From positions 1 to 64,000 of the forward strand of contig NZ_JALJCK010000013.1 in the NCBI RefSeq assembly GCF_022899355.1: a stretch of DNA of 64,000 nt, read 5' to 3'. A model generated the notes under the pieces. It worked only from the letters and a program-made list of their open reading frames with translations. It ran no database searches and was not told the origin of the DNA. This stretch comes from Shinella yambaruensis (GTDB taxonomy: Bacteria; Pseudomonadota; Alphaproteobacteria; Rhizobiales; Rhizobiaceae). Position numbers and translations under genes: made by a program. Positions 23,876-33,221 of this stretch are shown here, piece after piece (position 1 is the first letter of the stretch; each line of letters begins with the position of its first letter).

Positions 23876-24490
23876 GTTTTTGTTCGAAAAATTCGCGATC
23901 GGATAGATTGGCGAAATTTTCTGAGCTTTGATGCGCTTGTGGATATGGAAAGGATCGTTCGCCCATTGATGCTTTTTCCGACCTGAGGGGCGCAGAAGGG
24001 CAAAACGCATGTGCGCGAGGAAGACGGGGCCTGCCAGTTATACTCCAGCCTCGCCGTGACGTTTCGGCTTCGCCGTGGAAGCAACCTTCCCAGAATGAGC
24101 CCGGAATAAACGAATAGCGCGCCCGCCTCGGACGTCGGTTTCCGGTATGGGGTCGCAGAGCGTGGATCCCACCTTTTGCGATCCGCTACTGGAAAGATAA
24201 AGATCATGCAAAGCGTTTTCCTCGCGGCCACCTTGTCCCTGTGCACGTCCTTTCTCGATGCGCCTCCGGGACTCTACGGTTATCTCGAGGCCTGCGGCAC
24301 AATCGTCATTCCGGCGCAATCCGACTTTGCTACTCGCCTTGATGACGGAAAGGCGCGGGCTGGCCTTGACTGCGCCCGCCCGTCGGCTGATGCCGCGGGT
24401 GAGCGCAGCGGGCATACATGCAAGCGCCGGATCGATGCCCACTTCGACACGGCGGAGCTGCGGCTGGCCGACAGGGAAAAGGATGTAACC

Positions 24491-25320: not shown

Positions 25321-25935
25321 TTACCGCGCAGGCCTCGGCAGGCGCACCTGCGTCAGCGACTTGACCCGGCCGGGCCGGAGCCCCTTCAGCTGCGTCAGCA
25401 GATCCTTGGCGGCGGCGTTGCCATAGGCGCGGCGGCTGATGCCGAAGAGCATGACGCCGGGTTTGCCGCCGGCATCGCTGTAGCGGGCATAGCGGTAGGC
25501 GTTCCATTCGACGATGTACTGCCCGTCGGTGTCCTTGCTGCTGACGATGAAGTCGAGCAGCGCCTCGCCGGCCGCCTCGTTCTGGATGACGTCCATGTTG
25601 ACGAGCGGGTCCGTCGCCCTGCGCTGGTTCAGCATCGTCACCTGGGCGCGCACGGCATCCATGACGGTGATGCCGCTTGTGACGGTTTCGACCAGGATCA
25701 TCTGGTCGTATCGCTCGGCGCGCTGTCCGTCCGGAAGATATTCCTGCTTGATGTAGGTTGCGGAGGGCTGCGCGCTCCAGGCGAGCTTGTAGGCGTCGCC
25801 TTCGAAATCGATCGGGCCCGGTATGCCGAGCACATCGGTGGCCTGGGCAAGGGCGGATGTCGCCGTGAGCACGAGCGCGAGGAGCGCGGTGCCGAGATGG
25901 CGGGCGGGGCGGCTGATCGAACGGGTGGTTGCCAT
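25321..25935 (-). CDS. Exported hypothetical protein
   Basis: A 204-residue protein with a clear Sec signal peptide: basic N-terminus, hydrophobic core LGTALLALVLTATSALA, cleavage after ALA-QA near residue 31. The mature part is mixed alpha/beta with many Tyr and Asp residues and no recognised motif. It is the fourth gene of the minus-strand pspA-yqiJ-yqiK operon, 69 bp after yqiK, so it may act in the periplasm with that set. Confidence 0.65.
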   Translation of the reverse strand: MATTRSISRPARHLGTALLALVLTATSALAQATDVLGIPGPIDFEGDAYKLAWSAQPSATYIKQEYLPDGQRAERYDQMILVETVTSGITVMDAVRAQVTMLNQRRATDPLVNMDVIQNEAAGEALLDFIVSSKDTDGQYIVEWNAYRYARYSDAGGKPGVMLFGISRRAYGNAAAKDLLTQLKGLRPGRVKSLTQVRLPRPAR

Positions 25936-26004: not shown

Positions 26005-27714
26005 TCAATCGGCGTCGCCGGTTCTTGCCTTGGTGCCTTCGGCGGGCACCCTTGCCGCCGCGTTGCCGACCGAGGCGGCGAGCAGGGCCTGCGTCGGGTC
26101 CGCACCCTTGAAGCCCGCCTGCGCGAGGATCTCGTCGAGGATGGGCTTCTGGGCGGTGAAGCTGAGAAGCTGGCTGCTGAGGTCGCCGACGGCATGTCCC
26201 GCGCCATCGCCGCCATTGCTGCCGTTGCCCGCCAGCGCACCGGCGAGGCCGCCGGCGCTGAAGATGCGGATGTCGGAGATTTTCTCGATCGGCTTCATGG
26301 CCTGTTCCAGCGCCTGCGGGATGATGGCGACGCGGGCGCGGGCGAGCTCGAACTCGATGATGCTGGCCGAAAGCGCGTTGCGGGCTTCGTTGAGCGCGCG
26401 TTCGGCCTGGGCTTCGGCCTGGCCGAGCTCGATGACACCCGTCGCCTTGATCTTGGCGGCTTCCGCATCGGCCTGGGCCTGGATCTTCGTCGCGGCGGCG
26501 AGGTTTTCCGCCGCCTGGCGCTCGGCCTCGGCCTTGACGGTGATGGCGGTCGCCTCCTGTTCGGCGGCCTTGCGCGCATCGAGCACCGCGATGCGCTTGG
26601 CGCGCTCGGCGATCTCGACCTCCCGGGCCGTCGCCACCTGTTCCTCGGCGGTGATGGCGGCGGCCTTCGCCTCGTCGGCCTTGGCGCGGGCGGCCTGTTC
26701 CTGCTCGCTCTTCTCGGCGACCGCGATGGCGGCGTCGATGCGGGCCGTCTCCGTCACGCGGCGGGCTTCCGCCTCGCGCTCGGCGATGCCGCGCTCGGCA
26801 TCGATGCGGGCGGTCTCGCGGGCCTGGCGCGCCTGGGAGTCGCGTTCGGCAATGCCCTTTTCGGTGTCGAGCCGGGCGGTTTCCTCGCTGAGGCGGGCAA
26901 GCTGCTCGGCCTTGGCCGCTTCCGCGCGCGTCTCGGCGGTCTTGTTGGCGATGTCGCGTTCCTGCGTCAGCTCGGCGTCGCGCTGCTCGCGCTCGATGGT
27001 GAGGCGGCGCAGCGTGGCTTCCCGGTCCTTGGTGGCGATCTCCACCTCGTTGTCGCGGACGATCTGGTTGCGCTCGCGCTTGCGCTCCTCGGTGATCTTG
27101 GTGAGTGCGGTCAGGCCCTCGGCGTCGAAGCTGTTGTTCGGGTTGAAATGCTTGATATCCGTCTGGTCGAGGCGGGTCAGCGACACCGATTCCAGTTCGA
27201 GGCCGTTCGATTGCAGGTCGTGCGCAACGGCGGCCTGCACGGATTTGACGAATTCGGCGCGCTGCTCCTGCAGGTCGCGCAGCGACATGGTGGCGGCGAC
27301 CGAACGCAGGCCGTCGACGAACTTCGCCTCGACGAGCGTCTTCAGCGCATCGGCGTCGTTCGTGCGGTCGCCGAGCGTCTGGGCGGCGAGGGCGATGTTC
27401 TCCGAATCCGGCTTCACGCGGACGTAGAACTCCGCGGTGATGTCGGCGCGCATGCGGTCCTTGGTGATCAGCGATTCGTTTTCGGCGCGCTTGACCTCGA
27501 GCCGCAGCGTGCTGAGCGACACCCAGGAATAGGAGTGGAAGATCGGCAGGATGACCGATCCGCCGTCGAGCACGACCTTCTTGCCGCCGAGGCCGGTGCG
27601 CACATAGGCCTTGTCGCGCGTGGCGCGGGTGTAGAGCGAGGTCATGATGATGCCGATGACGACGATAGCCGTCACGATGACCCCGGCGATGATTCCTACC
27701 GAAAGGAAGTCCAT
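26005..27714 (-). CDS. yqiK: Flotillin-family membrane scaffold (YqiK-like)
   Basis: A 569-residue membrane-microdomain scaffold. One N-terminal membrane helix (about 5-27) is followed by a Band-7/PHB domain (about 35-205), a long Ala/Glu/Arg-rich coiled coil (about 210-440) and a flotillin-type C-terminus (about 440-530) with an Ala/Gly-rich tail. The repeats in the coiled coil (ERDSQARQARETARIDAE and similar) are heptad-like, not DNA repeats. It follows the YqiJ gene by 6 bp and is part of a pspA-yqiJ-yqiK order seen in other bacteria. It likely acts in envelope integrity under stress. Confidence 0.88.
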   Translation of the reverse strand: MDFLSVGIIAGVIVTAIVVIGIIMTSLYTRATRDKAYVRTGLGGKKVVLDGGSVILPIFHSYSWVSLSTLRLEVKRAENESLITKDRMRADITAEFYVRVKPDSENIALAAQTLGDRTNDADALKTLVEAKFVDGLRSVAATMSLRDLQEQRAEFVKSVQAAVAHDLQSNGLELESVSLTRLDQTDIKHFNPNNSFDAEGLTALTKITEERKRERNQIVRDNEVEIATKDREATLRRLTIEREQRDAELTQERDIANKTAETRAEAAKAEQLARLSEETARLDTEKGIAERDSQARQARETARIDAERGIAEREAEARRVTETARIDAAIAVAEKSEQEQAARAKADEAKAAAITAEEQVATAREVEIAERAKRIAVLDARKAAEQEATAITVKAEAERQAAENLAAATKIQAQADAEAAKIKATGVIELGQAEAQAERALNEARNALSASIIEFELARARVAIIPQALEQAMKPIEKISDIRIFSAGGLAGALAGNGSNGGDGAGHAVGDLSSQLLSFTAQKPILDEILAQAGFKGADPTQALLAASVGNAAARVPAEGTKARTGDAD

Positions 27715-27720
27715 GATCGT

Positions 27721-28377
27721 TTACCCTCCGTTGTTGGGATAGTGGCCGTCTTCGAGCACCGCCGGGGCGGGAATGGCCTGGAAGAGGCCGTCCTTGCCGT
27801 CGACGATGAGCACGGACGCGCCCGTCTCGATCACATGCCCCGGCACGGCCCGGGCACGCAGCGTGTGGATGTTGTCGTAGCGGTCCTTGATCCGCACCGT
27901 GCCGGGATGGCCCTGGTCGAGCGGCCCGAGCGTCACCGTCCCGACGAGACCGATGAAATCGGCCTGTTCCTGCACGCTGGTCTCGTCGCGCGGGATGATC
28001 CGCGCCAGACCGCGGGACGACCAGCGGGTGACGGGGATGGCGACGGCGAGCGCGCCGGTGACGGCGGCATAGAGCGGCAGCGGATCGCGGAACTGCGAGA
28101 TGACCGCCTGCAGGGCAAAGCCGGTCGCCGAGAAGGCGGAAAGCAGGATGACGGCGAGAACGAGGATCGGCACGCCGCCGGCATTGAGCCAGGACATCCA
28201 CCCGCCGAGAAGGCCCGATTCCGCGTCACCCGGCCCGTTGAAGTCGAGGCCGTCGTCGATCAGCCCGGAGGCGGAGGCGCCGAGCAGCACCGAGACCAGT
28301 TCGACGATGCCGAGGCCCGCCACCGTCAGGAGCGCGATCCAGAAGGGAGCGGTGCCCGGGTGGACGATGGAATCCAT
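27721..28377 (-). CDS. yqiJ: YqiJ-like OB-fold membrane protein
   Basis: A 218-residue inner-membrane protein with about three helices (11-33, 62-93, 96-115) and a soluble C-terminal OB-fold (about 140-205; FIGLVGTVTLGPLDQGHPGTVRIKD). This is the NfeD-like arrangement of proteins encoded next to flotillins. Its ATG shares one base with the pspA stop (TGATG), and its stop is 6 bp before yqiK, so the three genes are almost certainly co-transcribed and translationally coupled. It probably anchors or regulates the flotillin. Confidence 0.82.
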   Translation of the reverse strand: MDSIVHPGTAPFWIALLTVAGLGIVELVSVLLGASASGLIDDGLDFNGPGDAESGLLGGWMSWLNAGGVPILVLAVILLSAFSATGFALQAVISQFRDPLPLYAAVTGALAVAIPVTRWSSRGLARIIPRDETSVQEQADFIGLVGTVTLGPLDQGHPGTVRIKDRYDNIHTLRARAVPGHVIETGASVLIVDGKDGLFQAIPAPAVLEDGHYPNNGG

Positions 28378-29021
28378 CAGCGCTCACCGTGCTTGAAGGC
28401 GGCAAGGCGCGCCTCGATCGCCTTCTGGCGCTGCAGGCGCCCCAGTTCCTCGACCTCCGCCGTGCCATCCATGGCCGGCTTGGAAGGCACGCCGGTAACG
28501 CGCTCGACGGCTTCGAGCGCATCGGCAAGGCGCCGGTCGTTGCGCTGGGAGGGGGTGGCGGCCGGCGGGGCGGCGCGCTCGGCGCGCCGTGCATCCTCCA
28601 GCCGCTTCATCGCGTCGGCACGGGCCGAGGCGATGCTGCGCAGCGTCGCTTCGGCATCGGCGATCTCGCCGGCATTCTCCAGGATGGCCTTGGACAGCGC
28701 GTCGCGCTGGGCTTCGAGGTCGATCTGGACGCCGGTGGCGGCGCGGGCGAGGTCTTCGCGGCCGCTTTCCAGCCCGACCTTGATCTTCTCGTCGAGGTCG
28801 CGGATCTCCGCGTCGAGGTCGTCGGCCTTGGCCTTCAGCCGGTGGCCGGCGGCCATGGCGACGCCGAGCGCCGCGCGGGCTTCCTCGGCGATCGCGCCGA
28901 TCTCGCGGACGGCCTGCTGCGCCACGGCGACCGGGTTCGACGCCTCGGCGGCATCGACCGCAGTGTTGACGACGCCGGCGATGACGCGCCCGAGACGGGC
29001 GAGGATACCTTCGTTGGACAT
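28377..29021 (-). CDS. PspA/IM30 family protein (from an internal start)
   Basis: A 214-residue, almost wholly helical protein with PspA/IM30 character: MSNEGILARLGRVIAGVVNTAVDAAE start, NPVAVAQQAVREI, and a long coiled coil up to about residue 150. Proteins of this family bind the inner membrane and answer to envelope stress. The ATG at 29021 has a strong AAGGAGG site (29027-29033, 5-base gap), so this start is probably used. However, the frame has no stop upstream and continues through a TnpB-like segment to an ATG at 29486, giving a possible 369-residue fusion. Short and long forms may both be made. The stop overlaps the yqiJ start. Confidence 0.8.
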   Translation of the reverse strand: MSNEGILARLGRVIAGVVNTAVDAAEASNPVAVAQQAVREIGAIAEEARAALGVAMAAGHRLKAKADDLDAEIRDLDEKIKVGLESGREDLARAATGVQIDLEAQRDALSKAILENAGEIADAEATLRSIASARADAMKRLEDARRAERAAPPAATPSQRNDRRLADALEAVERVTGVPSKPAMDGTAEVEELGRLQRQKAIEARLAAFKHGER

Positions 29022-29486
29022 GGAAGCCTCCTTCTTCGAATGGATGCCGGCCTGGATGCCGGCATAGAGACAGATGGACGACCCGGCAAAGACGAGCCGC
29101 GCTTCGGCAAAATCCGCCCAGCCCTCGCGATAGCCGCTCGCCGCGTAAGGCAGCACGATGCGGCCGCCGAGCGTCGCGATGCTCACGCTGTCCGGGCCCT
29201 TGACGGCGAAGAGCTTGGAATCGAGCGGAATGTCCGCGACGATTTCCCCCGGCTTGCGGCGGCCGTGGTCGCGCAGTGCGAGCGTGACGAGGCGGGCGGG
29301 AAGACCCGTCGCCGCGCGGATTTCTTCATAGGCCGCCTGATGCAGCGCCACGACATTGGCGCCCTTGGTCCGGTCCAGGATCGCCATGGCCTGCTGATAG
29401 GCCTCCAGCGTCTCGGTCAGCGCCTTGCGCATGTCCGGGGTGGGCTGAAGGACGAGCCTGAGGCTGGATGTGAACTTCGTTACCAT
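29022..29486 (-). CDS. TnpB N-terminus-like segment, in frame with PspA
   Basis: About 155 residues from ATG 29486 that run into the pspA frame with no stop. The pattern fits the N-terminal (pre-RuvC) part of IS200/IS605 TnpB: LRLVLQPTPDMRKAL for the first strand and helix, ANVVALHQAAYEEIRAATGLP for the conserved Y-E-x-R-x3-G-L-P region, then IPLDSKLFAVKGPDSVSI, LGGRIVLPY and EARLVF. The RuvC and zinc-ribbon parts are absent. TnpB-like sequence stops at CLYAG, where a 12-bp tandem duplication (29041-29064) begins. No ribosome site precedes ATG 29486, but a good promoter lies so close that a leaderless mRNA is likely. It could be a domesticated fragment fused to PspA, or an upstream gene relying on readthrough. 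Confidence 0.6.
29041..29064. repeat. 12-bp tandem duplication at the TnpB-like/PspA junction
   Basis: TGGATGCCGGCC is followed directly by TGGATGCCGGCA, two copies with one difference. In the minus-strand frame they encode AGIQAGI. The duplication keeps the frame and lies exactly between the end of TnpB-like sequence and the ribosome site of the PspA start. Confidence 0.7.
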
Positions 29487-29493
29487 GGTTAAA

Positions 29494-29522
29494 TATATAA
29501 AGCACTTCATTAGTGCTTTCAA
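29494..29522 (-). promoter_or_regulatory. Promoter of the pspA-yqiJ-yqiK operon with a palindrome in its spacer
   Basis: On the minus strand TTGAAA (29517-29522) and TATATA (29494-29499) are 17 bp apart, close to consensus. The perfect inverted repeat AAAGCACT-N5-AGTGCTTT (29499-29519) fills the spacer, a classic repressor position. Transcription would begin within a few bases of ATG 29486, so the message is probably leaderless. Confidence 0.6.
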
Positions 29523-30077: not shown

Positions 30078-33000
30078 ATGCAGATTTTCCCCCGTTCCTT
30101 CCGCATTGGTCTCTCCCTCGTCCTCCTCGTCTTCCTCGCCGCGCCCGCATTCGCGCAAGCTCCGACGCAGGCGGCCATCGCGCGCTCCGACCTCATCGCG
30201 GCGGAGATGAAGGCGCTTGCCGAAGGCGGCGACCTGGAAGGCGCACGCCGCAAGGCGGAGGCGGCGAGCGCCCGGTTCAAGGCGGAGGGAGAGGCCTGGC
30301 TTGCGGCAAGCTATGCGGTCTCGGCTGTCGACTATGCGATGCGCATGGGCGATGCGGCGCGTGTCGATGCCGATTACTATCCGCGCATGGGGGAACTGCT
30401 CGCAACGCTCGAGCGGGTCGAGGAGACCCGGGCCAATCTCCTGCTCGAACTCCTGATGGACGCGAAGGGCCGGCTCGGCGACAAGGACCGGCAGGATGCG
30501 CTGGCGGAGCTTTATGAGGAGCGGATTCGCAAGGCCCACGGCAAGGACAGCGCCGAGGACATCGACGCCCGGGTGCGCACCGCCTACAGCCTGCTGGAGA
30601 GCCAGCGCCTGGAGGACGGCCGCAGGCGGCTGCGCGCTGCGCTGGCCGCCTCGGCGAAGACGGAGCTGCATGCCGTGACGCTGCGGCACTATACGCAGGC
30701 GGTGCGCAGCTTCCAGGCGAGCGGCCTCAATGACGACGCGGCGGCGCTCTTGCGGGAAGCGGAGCAGACGCCCGCCGTCCGCGCCGAGGTGAAGGAGCTT
30801 GCCGACTTCTACCTCGCCTATGCGGAGTTCCGCAGCGCGGTGCCCGACAGCCAGCAGCATTTCGTGCCGCTCTATTCGATGGCGACCAATCTCTATGCCC
30901 GCTTCTACGGCCATGAGTCTCCGGAACTGATCCATGCAACCGACAAGCTGGCGAGCGCGCTGTCGGATGTCGGGCAATATGGCACGGCGATCGACCTCGA
31001 ACGGCGCAATTACGAGATCGCGCAGAAATCGCTCGGCGACGACGACACCGTCACCTGGCGCATCGCCAACAACCTAGCCGACATGCTGCGCGGCATGGGC
31101 TCGCCCTCGCGGGCGCTGGAATATGACCTGAAGGTGCTGGAGAACCGTACCCGTCACTATGGCCGGAACCATTTCAACACGCTGGTGAGCGCCAACAACA
31201 CCGCGCAGAACTATCTCGATCTCGGCAACTATGCCGAGGCACGCCGCTATTTCGCGCTGTGCCTGGAAATATCCCGGGCACTCGGCGATCCCGTGACGAT
31301 TGCCGGCATGGAGGCCTGGCTCGCCTATACCGACCTGCTCTCGGGCGCCCGGCCGATGGATGCGGCGGCGGCCCGGCGCGTCGAGGCGCTCGTCACCGAT
31401 TCCAACTATCCGGCGATCCTCAGCATGAAGGCGGCCTATCTGCTGGCGGATCATTTCGCCAGGGCGGGCAATGCGGAACGGCAGATCAAGCATCTGCAGC
31501 AGGCCTACAGCATCGCCGCGGGCGAGATGAGCACCGGTCATCCGCTCGCCTTTGCCGGGCGCATCGCCATTGCCAATGCGAAGGCCGCGACGGATGCGGC
31601 CACGGCCGCCGGGGAATTCGCTGGCATCGACCAGGACATGCTGCGCTGGGTGCATCTGCAGGTCTCGGTGGCCGGCGGGCGGGAGGTCGGCGAGGCGGTG
31701 CGCGCCATGGCCGACGGCATGCTCTACGACTACGCGCGCTTTGCCGAACGGCACCCGTCCGCCGTGCCGGCCTTTGCGGATGCCGCCCGGCGCTGGCCCT
31801 CGCTTGCCACCGCCGATGCGGACAACGCGCTGAAACTTGCCCGTTTGATCGATCGCTCGGATAGCGAGACCGCCCGCCTGCTCGACCGCATCACACGCCT
31901 GTCGCGCATCGCCCGCGAGATCTTCGCCGCCGATGTCGAGCAGGATCTCGCCTATGCCTATCTTTCCGACACCAAGGCGCTGGAGCAGCAGCTGCACGAG
32001 CGTATCGTCGCGCGCTATCGGTTGGATCGCGAGACGATCCTGGACCAGCCGTTGCCGACCCCGGGGGACCTCCTGGCCGCGGACCAGGCGCTCGTCCAGT
32101 ATTTCACGACCCGCAAATGGCGGGTGGACCGAGAGAGCGCCGATCCGGTCGCGGATGCGCGGCTCTACGCCATCGTCTGGCGCAAGGGCGCGGCGCCGGT
32201 CCTGCGGGCGCTCGGCGATCCGCGCAGGCTGCTGGTGGGTGGCGATGACATGGTGGCGGCGCTCCAGACGCGTGACCGCAGTGCTGACGAGGGCAGGGGG
32301 TTGCTGGTCCAGGCGAGCAAGCGCGCCTTCGCGCGGCTGCATGACGCGCTGATTACGCCGATCGATGCCGACATCGCCGGCGCCAGGACCGTCTTCATCG
32401 TGCCGGACGGGCAATTGTTCGCCTTGCCCTTCTCCCTTCTCGAGGACCGGGCCGGCACGCTGCTCGAAGAGCGTTTCACGCTCAGGCTCCTGACCGAGCC
32501 GGAAGCGCTCTACCGGGCCGTAGAGGATCGTGCGCTGCCGTCCGAGGGCCGGATCGTGCTGGCGGGCGGCATCGACTATGCGAAGGGCGAGGAGGCGGGC
32601 GCCATGCCGTTGCCGGGAACGCTGCGCGAGGTAGAGGCGATCGGCAAGATCCTGTCCGGTCCGGGCCTGAAGATCGAGACCCTTTCCGGTGAGGCCGTCG
32701 GCGAGTCGGCGCTGCGCGAGCGCATGGCGGGGGCAACAGTCGCCCATCTGGCGACGCACGGCGCCTATGGCAGCGCGAAGAACGGCGGGGCCCGCAATGT
32801 CGATACGCTGTGGCAGAGCGAGGTCATCCTCGCCCGGTCGGGCGATACGCGCGCCATGCGCCGCGACGAGAAGGACGGGCGGCTCTACGCCTTCGAGCTG
32901 ATGGGCTGGGATCTTTCCGGTCTCGACCTGCTGGTGCTGTCGGCCTGCGAAACCGGCCGCGGCGACGAGGCCTTCGTCGGGGGACTGCGCGGCCTGCCGA

Positions 33001-33221
33001 CCGCGGCGAACCTTGCCGGCGCCAGGCGCTCCCTCCTGACGCTCTGGCCCGTCGCCGACGACGGCACCGCCGATTTCATGGTGCGCTTCTACGAGCACCT
33101 GAAGGACGGGCAGGCCTATGCCGAAGCGCTGCGCAGCACCCGTCGCGACGCCATCGAAGGCCGCATCCCCACGGCCCGGGATCCGCTTGTCTGGGCCGCC
33201 TTCGTGCTGTTCGAAAACTGA
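30078..33221 (+). CDS. Exported TPR-CHAT caspase-like protease
   Basis: A 1047-residue protein with a Sec signal peptide (SLVLLVFLAAPAFA, cleavage near residue 26), helical TPR repeats (about 130-500; YGTAIDLERRNYEIAQKSLG, NYAEARRYFALCLE), a helical middle and a C-terminal CHAT domain (about 700-1045). The caspase-like dyad is intact: His894 in VAHLATHGAY and Cys957 in LLVLSACETGRGD. The signal peptide implies periplasmic or surface action, unlike the cytoplasmic CHAT proteases of defence systems. It is divergent from the flotillin/PspA operon, with a small gene between. The substrate is unknown. Confidence 0.85.
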   Translation: MQIFPRSFRIGLSLVLLVFLAAPAFAQAPTQAAIARSDLIAAEMKALAEGGDLEGARRKAEAASARFKAEGEAWLAASYAVSAVDYAMRMGDAARVDADYYPRMGELLATLERVEETRANLLLELLMDAKGRLGDKDRQDALAELYEERIRKAHGKDSAEDIDARVRTAYSLLESQRLEDGRRRLRAALAASAKTELHAVTLRHYTQAVRSFQASGLNDDAAALLREAEQTPAVRAEVKELADFYLAYAEFRSAVPDSQQHFVPLYSMATNLYARFYGHESPELIHATDKLASALSDVGQYGTAIDLERRNYEIAQKSLGDDDTVTWRIANNLADMLRGMGSPSRALEYDLKVLENRTRHYGRNHFNTLVSANNTAQNYLDLGNYAEARRYFALCLEISRALGDPVTIAGMEAWLAYTDLLSGARPMDAAAARRVEALVTDSNYPAILSMKAAYLLADHFARAGNAERQIKHLQQAYSIAAGEMSTGHPLAFAGRIAIANAKAATDAATAAGEFAGIDQDMLRWVHLQVSVAGGREVGEAVRAMADGMLYDYARFAERHPSAVPAFADAARRWPSLATADADNALKLARLIDRSDSETARLLDRITRLSRIAREIFAADVEQDLAYAYLSDTKALEQQLHERIVARYRLDRETILDQPLPTPGDLLAADQALVQYFTTRKWRVDRESADPVADARLYAIVWRKGAAPVLRALGDPRRLLVGGDDMVAALQTRDRSADEGRGLLVQASKRAFARLHDALITPIDADIAGARTVFIVPDGQLFALPFSLLEDRAGTLLEERFTLRLLTEPEALYRAVEDRALPSEGRIVLAGGIDYAKGEEAGAMPLPGTLREVEAIGKILSGPGLKIETLSGEAVGESALRERMAGATVAHLATHGAYGSAKNGGARNVDTLWQSEVILARSGDTRAMRRDEKDGRLYAFELMGWDLSGLDLLVLSACETGRGDEAFVGGLRGLPTAANLAGARRSLLTLWPVADDGTADFMVRFYEHLKDGQAYAEALRSTRRDAIEGRIPTARDPLVWAAFVLFEN

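Follow-up and report, generated by a model that had tools for sequence, protein, structure and literature searches.

In a soil bacterium, the half of a transposon-encoded, RNA-guided nuclease that reads DNA seems to have become a transcription regulator that needs no guide and is fused to a membrane-stress protein; the fusion probably controls the operon of that membrane-stress protein. The gene lies in a 64,000-nucleotide stretch of Shinella yambaruensis DNA (assembly GCF_022899355.1, contig NZ_JALJCK010000013.1, positions 1 to 64,000; hereafter, the window). It encodes an N-terminal domain related to the recognition (REC) lobe of TnpB, the ancestor of Cas12, followed in frame by a PspA/IM30-like protein, and it is succeeded by yqiJ- and yqiK-like genes. 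We consider it likely that the product is a one-component autoregulator, in which the guide-free TnpB lobe reads an operator and controls the fusion-yqiJ-yqiK operon, with PspA acting as the stress sensor. On balance, we also lean towards the broader proposal that the TnpB/Cas12 recognition lobe alone is a sequence-specific, guide-free DNA-binding domain, and as such a new class of transcription factor. Fused to PspA, it would allow one protein to sense membrane stress and to read a palindromic operator, and half-site specificity would come from residues 49 (His/Thr/Gln/Asn) and 65 (Arg/Gln) of the REC helices, in the way that TnpB reads its target-adjacent motif (TAM). Both proposals draw on the homology and predicted fold of the domain, on a conserved fusion under selection, and on a unique, linked palindrome that co-varies with the two residues. 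An initial annotation, made from the sequence alone, had suggested a regulator or an RNA- or DNA-binding module; the operator-like palindrome, which co-varies with the domain, lends this suggestion specific support, the binding of DNA being the putative step.

The same annotation had assigned the first ~150 residues to the part of TnpB that precedes the RuvC domain. The motifs on which it relied, LQPTPD, ANVVALHQAAYEEIRAATGLP and LFAVKGPDSVSIATLGGRI, are all found in the frame, and both profile comparison and fold search agree with the assignment. In hhalign comparisons, the N-terminal domain scored 99.4% against ten TnpB REC lobes (E = 8.3e-22) and 98.9% against seven full TnpBs over columns 9-152, with the alignment stopping before RuvC, while the control against PspA scored 0.4%. 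Because most of the TnpBs compared had been found using the N-terminal domain itself, the comparison was repeated with two TnpBs not chosen with its profile, which had been found via another TnpB that was itself a match to the domain; these gave 96.9% (E = 1.4e-10). Residues 1-155 matched no curated hidden Markov model (HMM) of Pfam or NCBIfam above its cut-off. The best trace of TnpB in such models was the match of one family member to HTH_OrfB_IS605 (E = 0.22), beyond which neither the Pfam and NCBIfam models nor phmmer and hmmsearch searches of the PDB found TnpB. The negative result in the PDB is uninformative, because a profile of ten TnpB or TnpB-like REC lobes also misses the TnpBs deposited there. 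A profile of 15 N-terminal domains found TnpB-like frames in four plasmids (best E-values from 6e-13 to 3e-18), whose records had been picked through an earlier weak match. Applied to an unselected sample of 398 genomes of the phylum, the same profile matched 10 genomes at E <= 1e-6, nine of them with fusions and one with a complete TnpB that includes RuvC and zinc finger (E = 2.8e-12).

The AlphaFold2 model of the domain (predicted local distance difference test, 88.4; predicted template modelling score, 0.84) comprises a strand (WED beta1), three REC helices and then a beta barrel (WED), a predicted fold that is TnpB-like. When it was compared with the PDB using Foldseek, ranks 1-9 were all TnpB, Fanzor2, TranC or Cas12, including ISDra2 TnpB (8ex9, probability 1.00). 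The REC lobe of ISDra2 TnpB is formed by WED (residues 1-12 and 117-176) and REC (13-116), with RuvC starting at 185, and the TAM duplex is held in the cleft between WED and REC (PMC10097598). Since our domain matches WED and REC of ISDra2 TnpB and stops before RuvC, the part that reads double-stranded DNA appears to have been kept and the nuclease lost. RuvC, with its catalytic acids, and the zinc-finger TNB domain are absent, the WED barrel running directly into PspA, and no OrfB match to Pfam was obtained in the whole 369-residue protein; the loss of the nuclease half from an intact frame had thus been correctly noticed. By homology and predicted fold, the N-terminal domain is a complete TnpB REC lobe without the nuclease lobe.

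Directly 5′ of the start codon, the sequence TTGAAAGCACTAATGAAGTGCTTTATATATT contains a promoter-like hexamer pair spanned by an inverted repeat. Seven bases separate the promoter-like element from the ATG, which would be a near-leaderless start, and some orthologues carry TATATT, TATACT or TATGTT at equal spacing. As in an autoregulator, the palindrome is located in the promoter region of the gene itself and is linked to it. The exact repeat, AAAGCAC-N7-GTGCTTT, occurs once in the Shinella genome. In a census over 42 genomes, it was found once per genome, beside the fusion, in 11 of the 12 genomes with a fusion of the AAAGCAC type, and the twelfth has it with one mismatch. In contrast, it was found in none of the 15 same-genus genomes without the fusion, in none of nine PspA-only genomes and in none of six fusion genomes with other half-sites. 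A search for a regulon with up to two mismatches returned 9 places, its own site included, versus 7 for the control, and therefore revealed none.

The palindrome was then followed in 54 fusion loci, 39 of a first set and 15 held out (fusions of the order fetched after the pattern was set). It is present with at most one arm mismatch in 49 of them: 38 of the 39 first-set loci (up to 80 bases from the start codon; 31 exact) and 11 of the 15 held-out loci (up to 80 bases from the match start; 4 exact); these 15 are not independent tests, because they were drawn from few genera. All the repeats of the held-out fusions lie just upstream of the fusion. By the same measure, the palindrome was absent from nine PspA-only loci within 80 bases and from seven further PspA-only loci within 120 bases of the match start. 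A shuffled single locus reaches this level in 10-20% of cases, and the single-locus test was weak (p mostly 0.003-0.09, but 0.16-0.25 in loci L027, L028 and L030), with a different repeat being the longest exact one in L060, L070 and L031. The argument for the palindrome rests on conservation, linkage and co-variation, and not on this test. The half-sites are not the same everywhere, and where they differ the two arms have changed together: AAAACAC/GTGTTTT is found in L081; AATCAC/GTGATT, in two copies, in L071-L073; and AAAGGAT/GTCCTTT (L027, L028) or AAAGTAT/GTACTTT (L030), with the spacer-side base unmatched, in three more. The held-out set provided two new symmetric half-sites, AAAGGAC/GTCCTTT and AATGAC/GTCATT. 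Across the 21 distinct 21-mers of the first 39 loci (no held-out loci; L071-L073, which have two copies and shorter arms, and L031 left out), the arms paired in 99.3% of the cells, and their covariation was 0.124 versus 0.072 in shuffles (0/500), a value above all 500 shuffles and all slid registers. As a separate observation, in the divergent fusions L071-L073 the two AATCAC-N7-GTGATT palindromes flank a TTGAAA or TTGACA box, and a ribosome-site-like stretch precedes the start.

To relate the palindrome to the protein, the 54 loci were typed by their left arm. Residue 65 lies at the start of the third helix; all 48 loci that have C at the core base encode Arg here, and the six others, in which this base is G (four), T (one) or unclear (L031), encode Gln. 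At residue 49, within the second helix, all 48 AAAG-type loci and L031 have His, and the amino acid is Thr with AAAACAC, Gln with AATCAC and Asn with AATGAC. Only three of the 369 columns (65, 172 and 174) distinguish the Q65 loci from the R65 loci, 65 being the only one in the N-terminal domain; likewise, only columns 49 and 71 are uniform in the AAAG-type loci (with at most one exception) and different in all five AAT/AAAA loci. In a tree built without column 65, L116 (Q65, AAAGGAC) nests inside the R65 loci (ultrafast bootstrap support [UFBoot] 99), and its grouping with the other Q65 loci was rejected (approximately unbiased [AU] test, p 0.017). Given this separate position of L116, residue 65 and the core base seem to have changed together at least twice. 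Judging from the order of the helices, both residues would sit on the REC helices that read the TAM.

We regard it as unlikely that the palindrome is bound by an unlinked transcription factor while the TnpB-like domain does something else, such as making a protein contact within a complex of PspA, YqiJ and YqiK. This domain's low charge would be compatible with such a role, and the binding of the fusion to the operator is a step that we infer. Against it stand the single exact site per genome, which is linked to the fusion and missing where the fusion is missing, the co-variation with residues 49 and 65, and the lack of any other gene shared beside the operon in the three annotated loci. It is similarly improbable that the palindrome works as a 5′ RNA hairpin, bound by the fusion protein or controlling translation, instead of as a DNA operator. 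In 35 of the 39 first-set loci the end of the palindrome lies 10-12 bases ahead of the start codon, a terminator scan flags the palindrome, its arms co-vary, and four of the five asymmetric departures among the 21 elements of the pair count are G-U compatible, all of which would suit a hairpin. However, the left arm of the AAAGCAC type shares bases with the −35-like TTGAAA, and its right arm reaches the −10-like hexamer, so the palindrome would precede the start of the transcript. Additionally, two copies are present in three loci, where the end of the upper one lies 51 or 52 bases ahead of the start; no asymmetric departure in the held-out loci is G-U, all being A-C, A-G or C-U; and the eighth pair is often not kept.

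A regulator of the TldR type, in which the REC lobe still addresses DNA with a guide RNA, is in our opinion very unlikely. Domesticated TnpBs without nuclease activity, the TldRs, serve as RNA-guided repressors (PMC13418256), and the WED domain of TnpB contacts the omega-RNA (PMC10097598). However, TldRs arose by mutational inactivation of RuvC (PMC13418256), whereas the fusion has lost the whole nuclease (NUC) lobe, and RuvC holds much of the omega-RNA in ISDra2 TnpB (PMC10097598). No Rfam match was found between positions 24000 and 34000, although many omega-RNAs have no model, and no OrfB_IS605 match was found anywhere in the genome. Moreover, the domain carries little positive charge, and a palindrome that co-varies with protein residues is not expected of a guide.

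The fusion is conserved. Full-length fusions were detected in 19 of 394 genomes of the family, 24 of 397 of the order, 6 of 385 of the class and 9 of 398 of the phylum, these samples overlapping. A 20th match in the family (G589, L074; E = 2.4e-4) was dropped as false once its sequence was read. Matches in the PspA part only were obtained in nine genomes of the class and nine of the order; seven of the latter were fetched, and G1215 and G112 (in-frame stop in the match) were left out. The eight first relatives belong to Shinella, Rhizobium, Ciceribacter and Agrobacterium, and eleven plasmid records from Shinella, Agrobacterium, Rhizobium and Bosea carry the fusion too. It is kept in frame in Rhizobiaceae and other alphaproteobacteria. 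The upstream frame, whose conservation the initial annotation had left to be checked, is stop-free in 8 of 8 first relatives, 19 of 19 true family matches and 24 of 24 full-length order matches, and no stop was found in any of the 54 fusion frames examined. The ratio of non-synonymous to synonymous substitution rates (dN/dS) in the N-terminal domain was 0.08-0.23 in nine comparisons with the window sequence and 0.06-0.23 over all computable pairs (13 of 14), while that of the PspA part was 0.03-0.14 over all 14 pairs. Invariant residues are kept across several families. From these sequence comparisons, the N-terminal domain is under purifying selection. A split sets the PspA parts of the fusions apart from the PspA-only type (support 0.967), and the same split was recovered on full lengths (UFBoot 98). 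That the domain is what remains of a TnpB insertion, simply read on into pspA while the short PspA alone is used, is scarcely credible even with so strong an internal ribosome site, given the 54 stop-free frames, the invariant residues and a purifying selection that argues against use of the short form only.

Several observations weigh against the autoregulator proposal. No curated HMM names the N-terminal domain, and its Foldseek matches have modest E-values (best 4e-3) and TM-scores of about 0.5. The net charge of 39 N-terminal domains ranges from −7 to +7, versus +4 to +20 in seven TnpBs, and the domain is much less basic than most TnpB REC lobes. The promoter was called by eye, and a strict sigma-70 scan of the window did not call it. 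Four held-out loci have two arm mismatches, and L031, also with two, has no clear palindrome. Among the 48 loci counted as having C at the core base, L060, L077 and L080 match this base on one arm only: L077 and L080 have T on the left arm and the matching G on the right, and in L060 the C is confined to the left arm. In addition, columns 172 and 174 of the PspA part (and 344, if L031 is excluded) split the Q65 and R65 loci as well, the four AAT loci are set apart from all others by nine columns, of which five belong to the PspA part, and the two deeper nodes of the tree have a support of only 80 and 86. Since PspA columns split the loci alike, part of the association may, even with the AU test, reflect shared ancestry.

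The coordinates of the gene, its control region and its neighbours are collected in Table 1. The minus-strand frame is open, as first annotated, from the ATG to a TGA that ends at 28377. It extends upstream to a TTG at 29522 (381 amino acids); the ATG at 29486 is the likelier start, because the stretch up to this TTG is the conserved promoter and palindrome, and in annotated Bosea and Agrobacterium relatives the gene starts at the matching place. Residues 156-369 correspond to a divergent PspA/IM30 protein with its own ATG. The whole protein scored 34.9 bits with Pfam PspA_IM30, above the cut-off of 33.9, and the PspA part alone 31.7, under it; with TIGR02977 (phage shock protein PspA equivalog), the score was 31.9 bits against a cut-off of 242.95, so this part is a member of the family and not a PspA equivalog. 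In the AlphaFold2 model, long helices are predicted between residues 161 and 305, and the linker around the internal ribosome site has low confidence. This site, AGGAGG, sits five bases 5′ of the internal ATG, and it bears out the strong ribosome site first annotated for the PspA-like part. All 39 first-set loci have GGAG or longer ahead of the PspA Met, and 12 of 15 held-out loci have GGAG, GAGG or AGGA there. Because the internal site is kept, both a long and a short form are probably made.

Table 1. Features of the fusion gene, its upstream region and the operon (window coordinates)
Feature	Position	Strand	Basis or remark
Whole fusion gene (REC lobe-PspA)	28377..29486	-	369 aa; family kept in frame
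N-terminal domain, 155 codons: TnpB-type REC lobe, no RuvC/TNB	29022..29486	-	hhalign, AlphaFold2, Foldseek
PspA/IM30-like coiled coil, own internal ATG (29021)	28377..29021	-	Pfam PF04012 1.6e-8 (whole protein)
Internal Shine-Dalgarno AGGAGG for short PspA form	29027..29032	-	conserved across fusion loci
Palindromic operator candidate AAAGCAC-N7-GTGCTTT	29499..29519	.	only exact copy in genome
Promoter-like TTGAAA-N17-TATATA over palindrome	29494..29522	-	read by eye
yqiJ-like OB-fold membrane protein	27721..28377	-	Pfam YqiJ_N 6.6e-20, YqiJ_OB 3.3e-8
yqiK-like flotillin/band-7 protein	26005..27714	-	Pfam Flot 1.4e-26, Band_7 3.7e-17

These elements suggest how the autoregulator could work. 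The N-terminal 150 residues would provide the WED and REC lobe that grips and reads the target-adjacent motif in TnpB, and with the RuvC/zinc-finger lobe, cleavage and many of the contacts with the guide RNA would have gone. The PspA coiled coil may pair two lobes, each of which would read one arm of the palindrome (usually a CAC-N7-GTG core), and the paired lobes on their own promoter would block transcription of fusion-yqiJ-yqiK. Under membrane stress, PspA would move to the membrane and the long form would leave the operator, inducing the operon; the internal ribosome site could then supply the short PspA as the effector. Operator binding, repression, pairing and release by stress are all inferred.

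In the operon, the start of the yqiJ-like gene overlaps the stop of the fusion. A tblastn match to yqiJ follows the fusion in 39 of 39 first-set loci, the 15 held-out loci being outside this count, and a yqiK match is present in 38 of 39, most of which offer no more than 1.5 kb of flanking sequence. The sister operons that lack the domain also have yqiJ and yqiK matches (9 of 9 PspA-only loci), and a protein of ~170 residues is encoded directly 5′ of pspA. Its gene or a tblastn relative was found in 9 of 9 and 5 of 7 PspA-only loci (14 of 16); none of the 39 fusion loci, many of them limited to 1.5 kb of flank, has it. This protein starts with SVRxSxxDAAFLA...TPSEKxRALI, a pattern that we take, by eye, to resemble a ribbon-helix-helix; Pfam, NCBIfam and PDB profile searches did not confirm such a domain. 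If this reading is right, the TnpB lobe has replaced a conventional DNA-binding regulator. The ~170-residue gene is conserved 5′ of PspA-YqiJ-YqiK in L032-L040, L098-L100, L102 and L104, and several of its promoters carry, by eye, repeated TGNATACA-like words. Around the operon of the window, positions 25321-25935 (minus strand), 3′ of yqiK, encode a small protein with a signal-peptide-like start and no Pfam family above cut-off. Divergent to the fusion, positions 30078-33221 (plus strand) encode TPR repeats and a C-terminal CHAT domain (Pfam CHAT 2.8e-53), CHAT being a caspase-like protease family.

On a Thermobacillus composti plasmid (NC_019898.1, ~64493-65035; L022/L041), a stand-alone TnpB REC-lobe protein of ~180 amino acids, annotated as hypothetical, is encoded with no RuvC after it, and the palindrome ATAGATT-GATTT-AATCTAT lies upstream of its start. 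This is possibly an independent guide-free use of the TnpB lobe. Among the 15 plasmid records listed, out of 47 with a relative, 11 are annotated as TnpB or transposase.

If our proposal is true, the half of TnpB or Cas12 that reads the TAM or the protospacer-adjacent motif (PAM) would be a DNA-binding module in its own right, one that evolution has already detached, paired and re-tuned. The natural, matched variants of protein and operator could then be used to learn how TAM/PAM specificity is encoded, and a phage-shock-type operon would have gained a new control circuit, with sensor and DNA-binding domain in one protein. To our knowledge, the known host uses of TnpB, that is, Cas12 and TldR, all keep RNA guidance. 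In agreement with the initial annotation, which knew of no described example, among the open PMC papers listed in searches on TnpB and PspA, no title or abstract beginning describes a protein that joins a TnpB lobe to PspA.

Compared with TnpB of IS200/IS605, the fusion has the order of the REC lobe and the predicted fold of ISDra2 TnpB, with WED beta1, REC helices and WED barrel. It differs in having three predicted REC helices versus four, in its lack of RuvC, of the zinc finger (TNB) and of a detected guide RNA, and in that its C-terminal half is PspA. Like TldR, it is a TnpB derivative put to use by the host, probably in transcription regulation. TldRs retain an inactivated RuvC and are RNA-guided (PMC13418256); in the fusion the nuclease lobe is absent, the Rfam search found no guide RNA, and the sequence of the palindromic site is tied to that of the protein. 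The operon is like those surveyed in PMC11237479, with PspA followed by YqiJ-like and flotillin-like genes. According to the same survey, more than 98% of PspA homologues vary little in architecture; tandem repeats and fusions make up the other <2%, those named being with NlpC/P60 and PspAA. TnpB, Cas12 and OrfB are not named in its main text. Finally, as in the control by PspF, LiaR or ClgR, a DNA-binding protein, here a candidate one, is linked to the expression of pspA. Those regulators are separate proteins of the helix-turn-helix type (PMC11237479), whereas in the fusion the candidate DNA-binding domain is joined to PspA itself.

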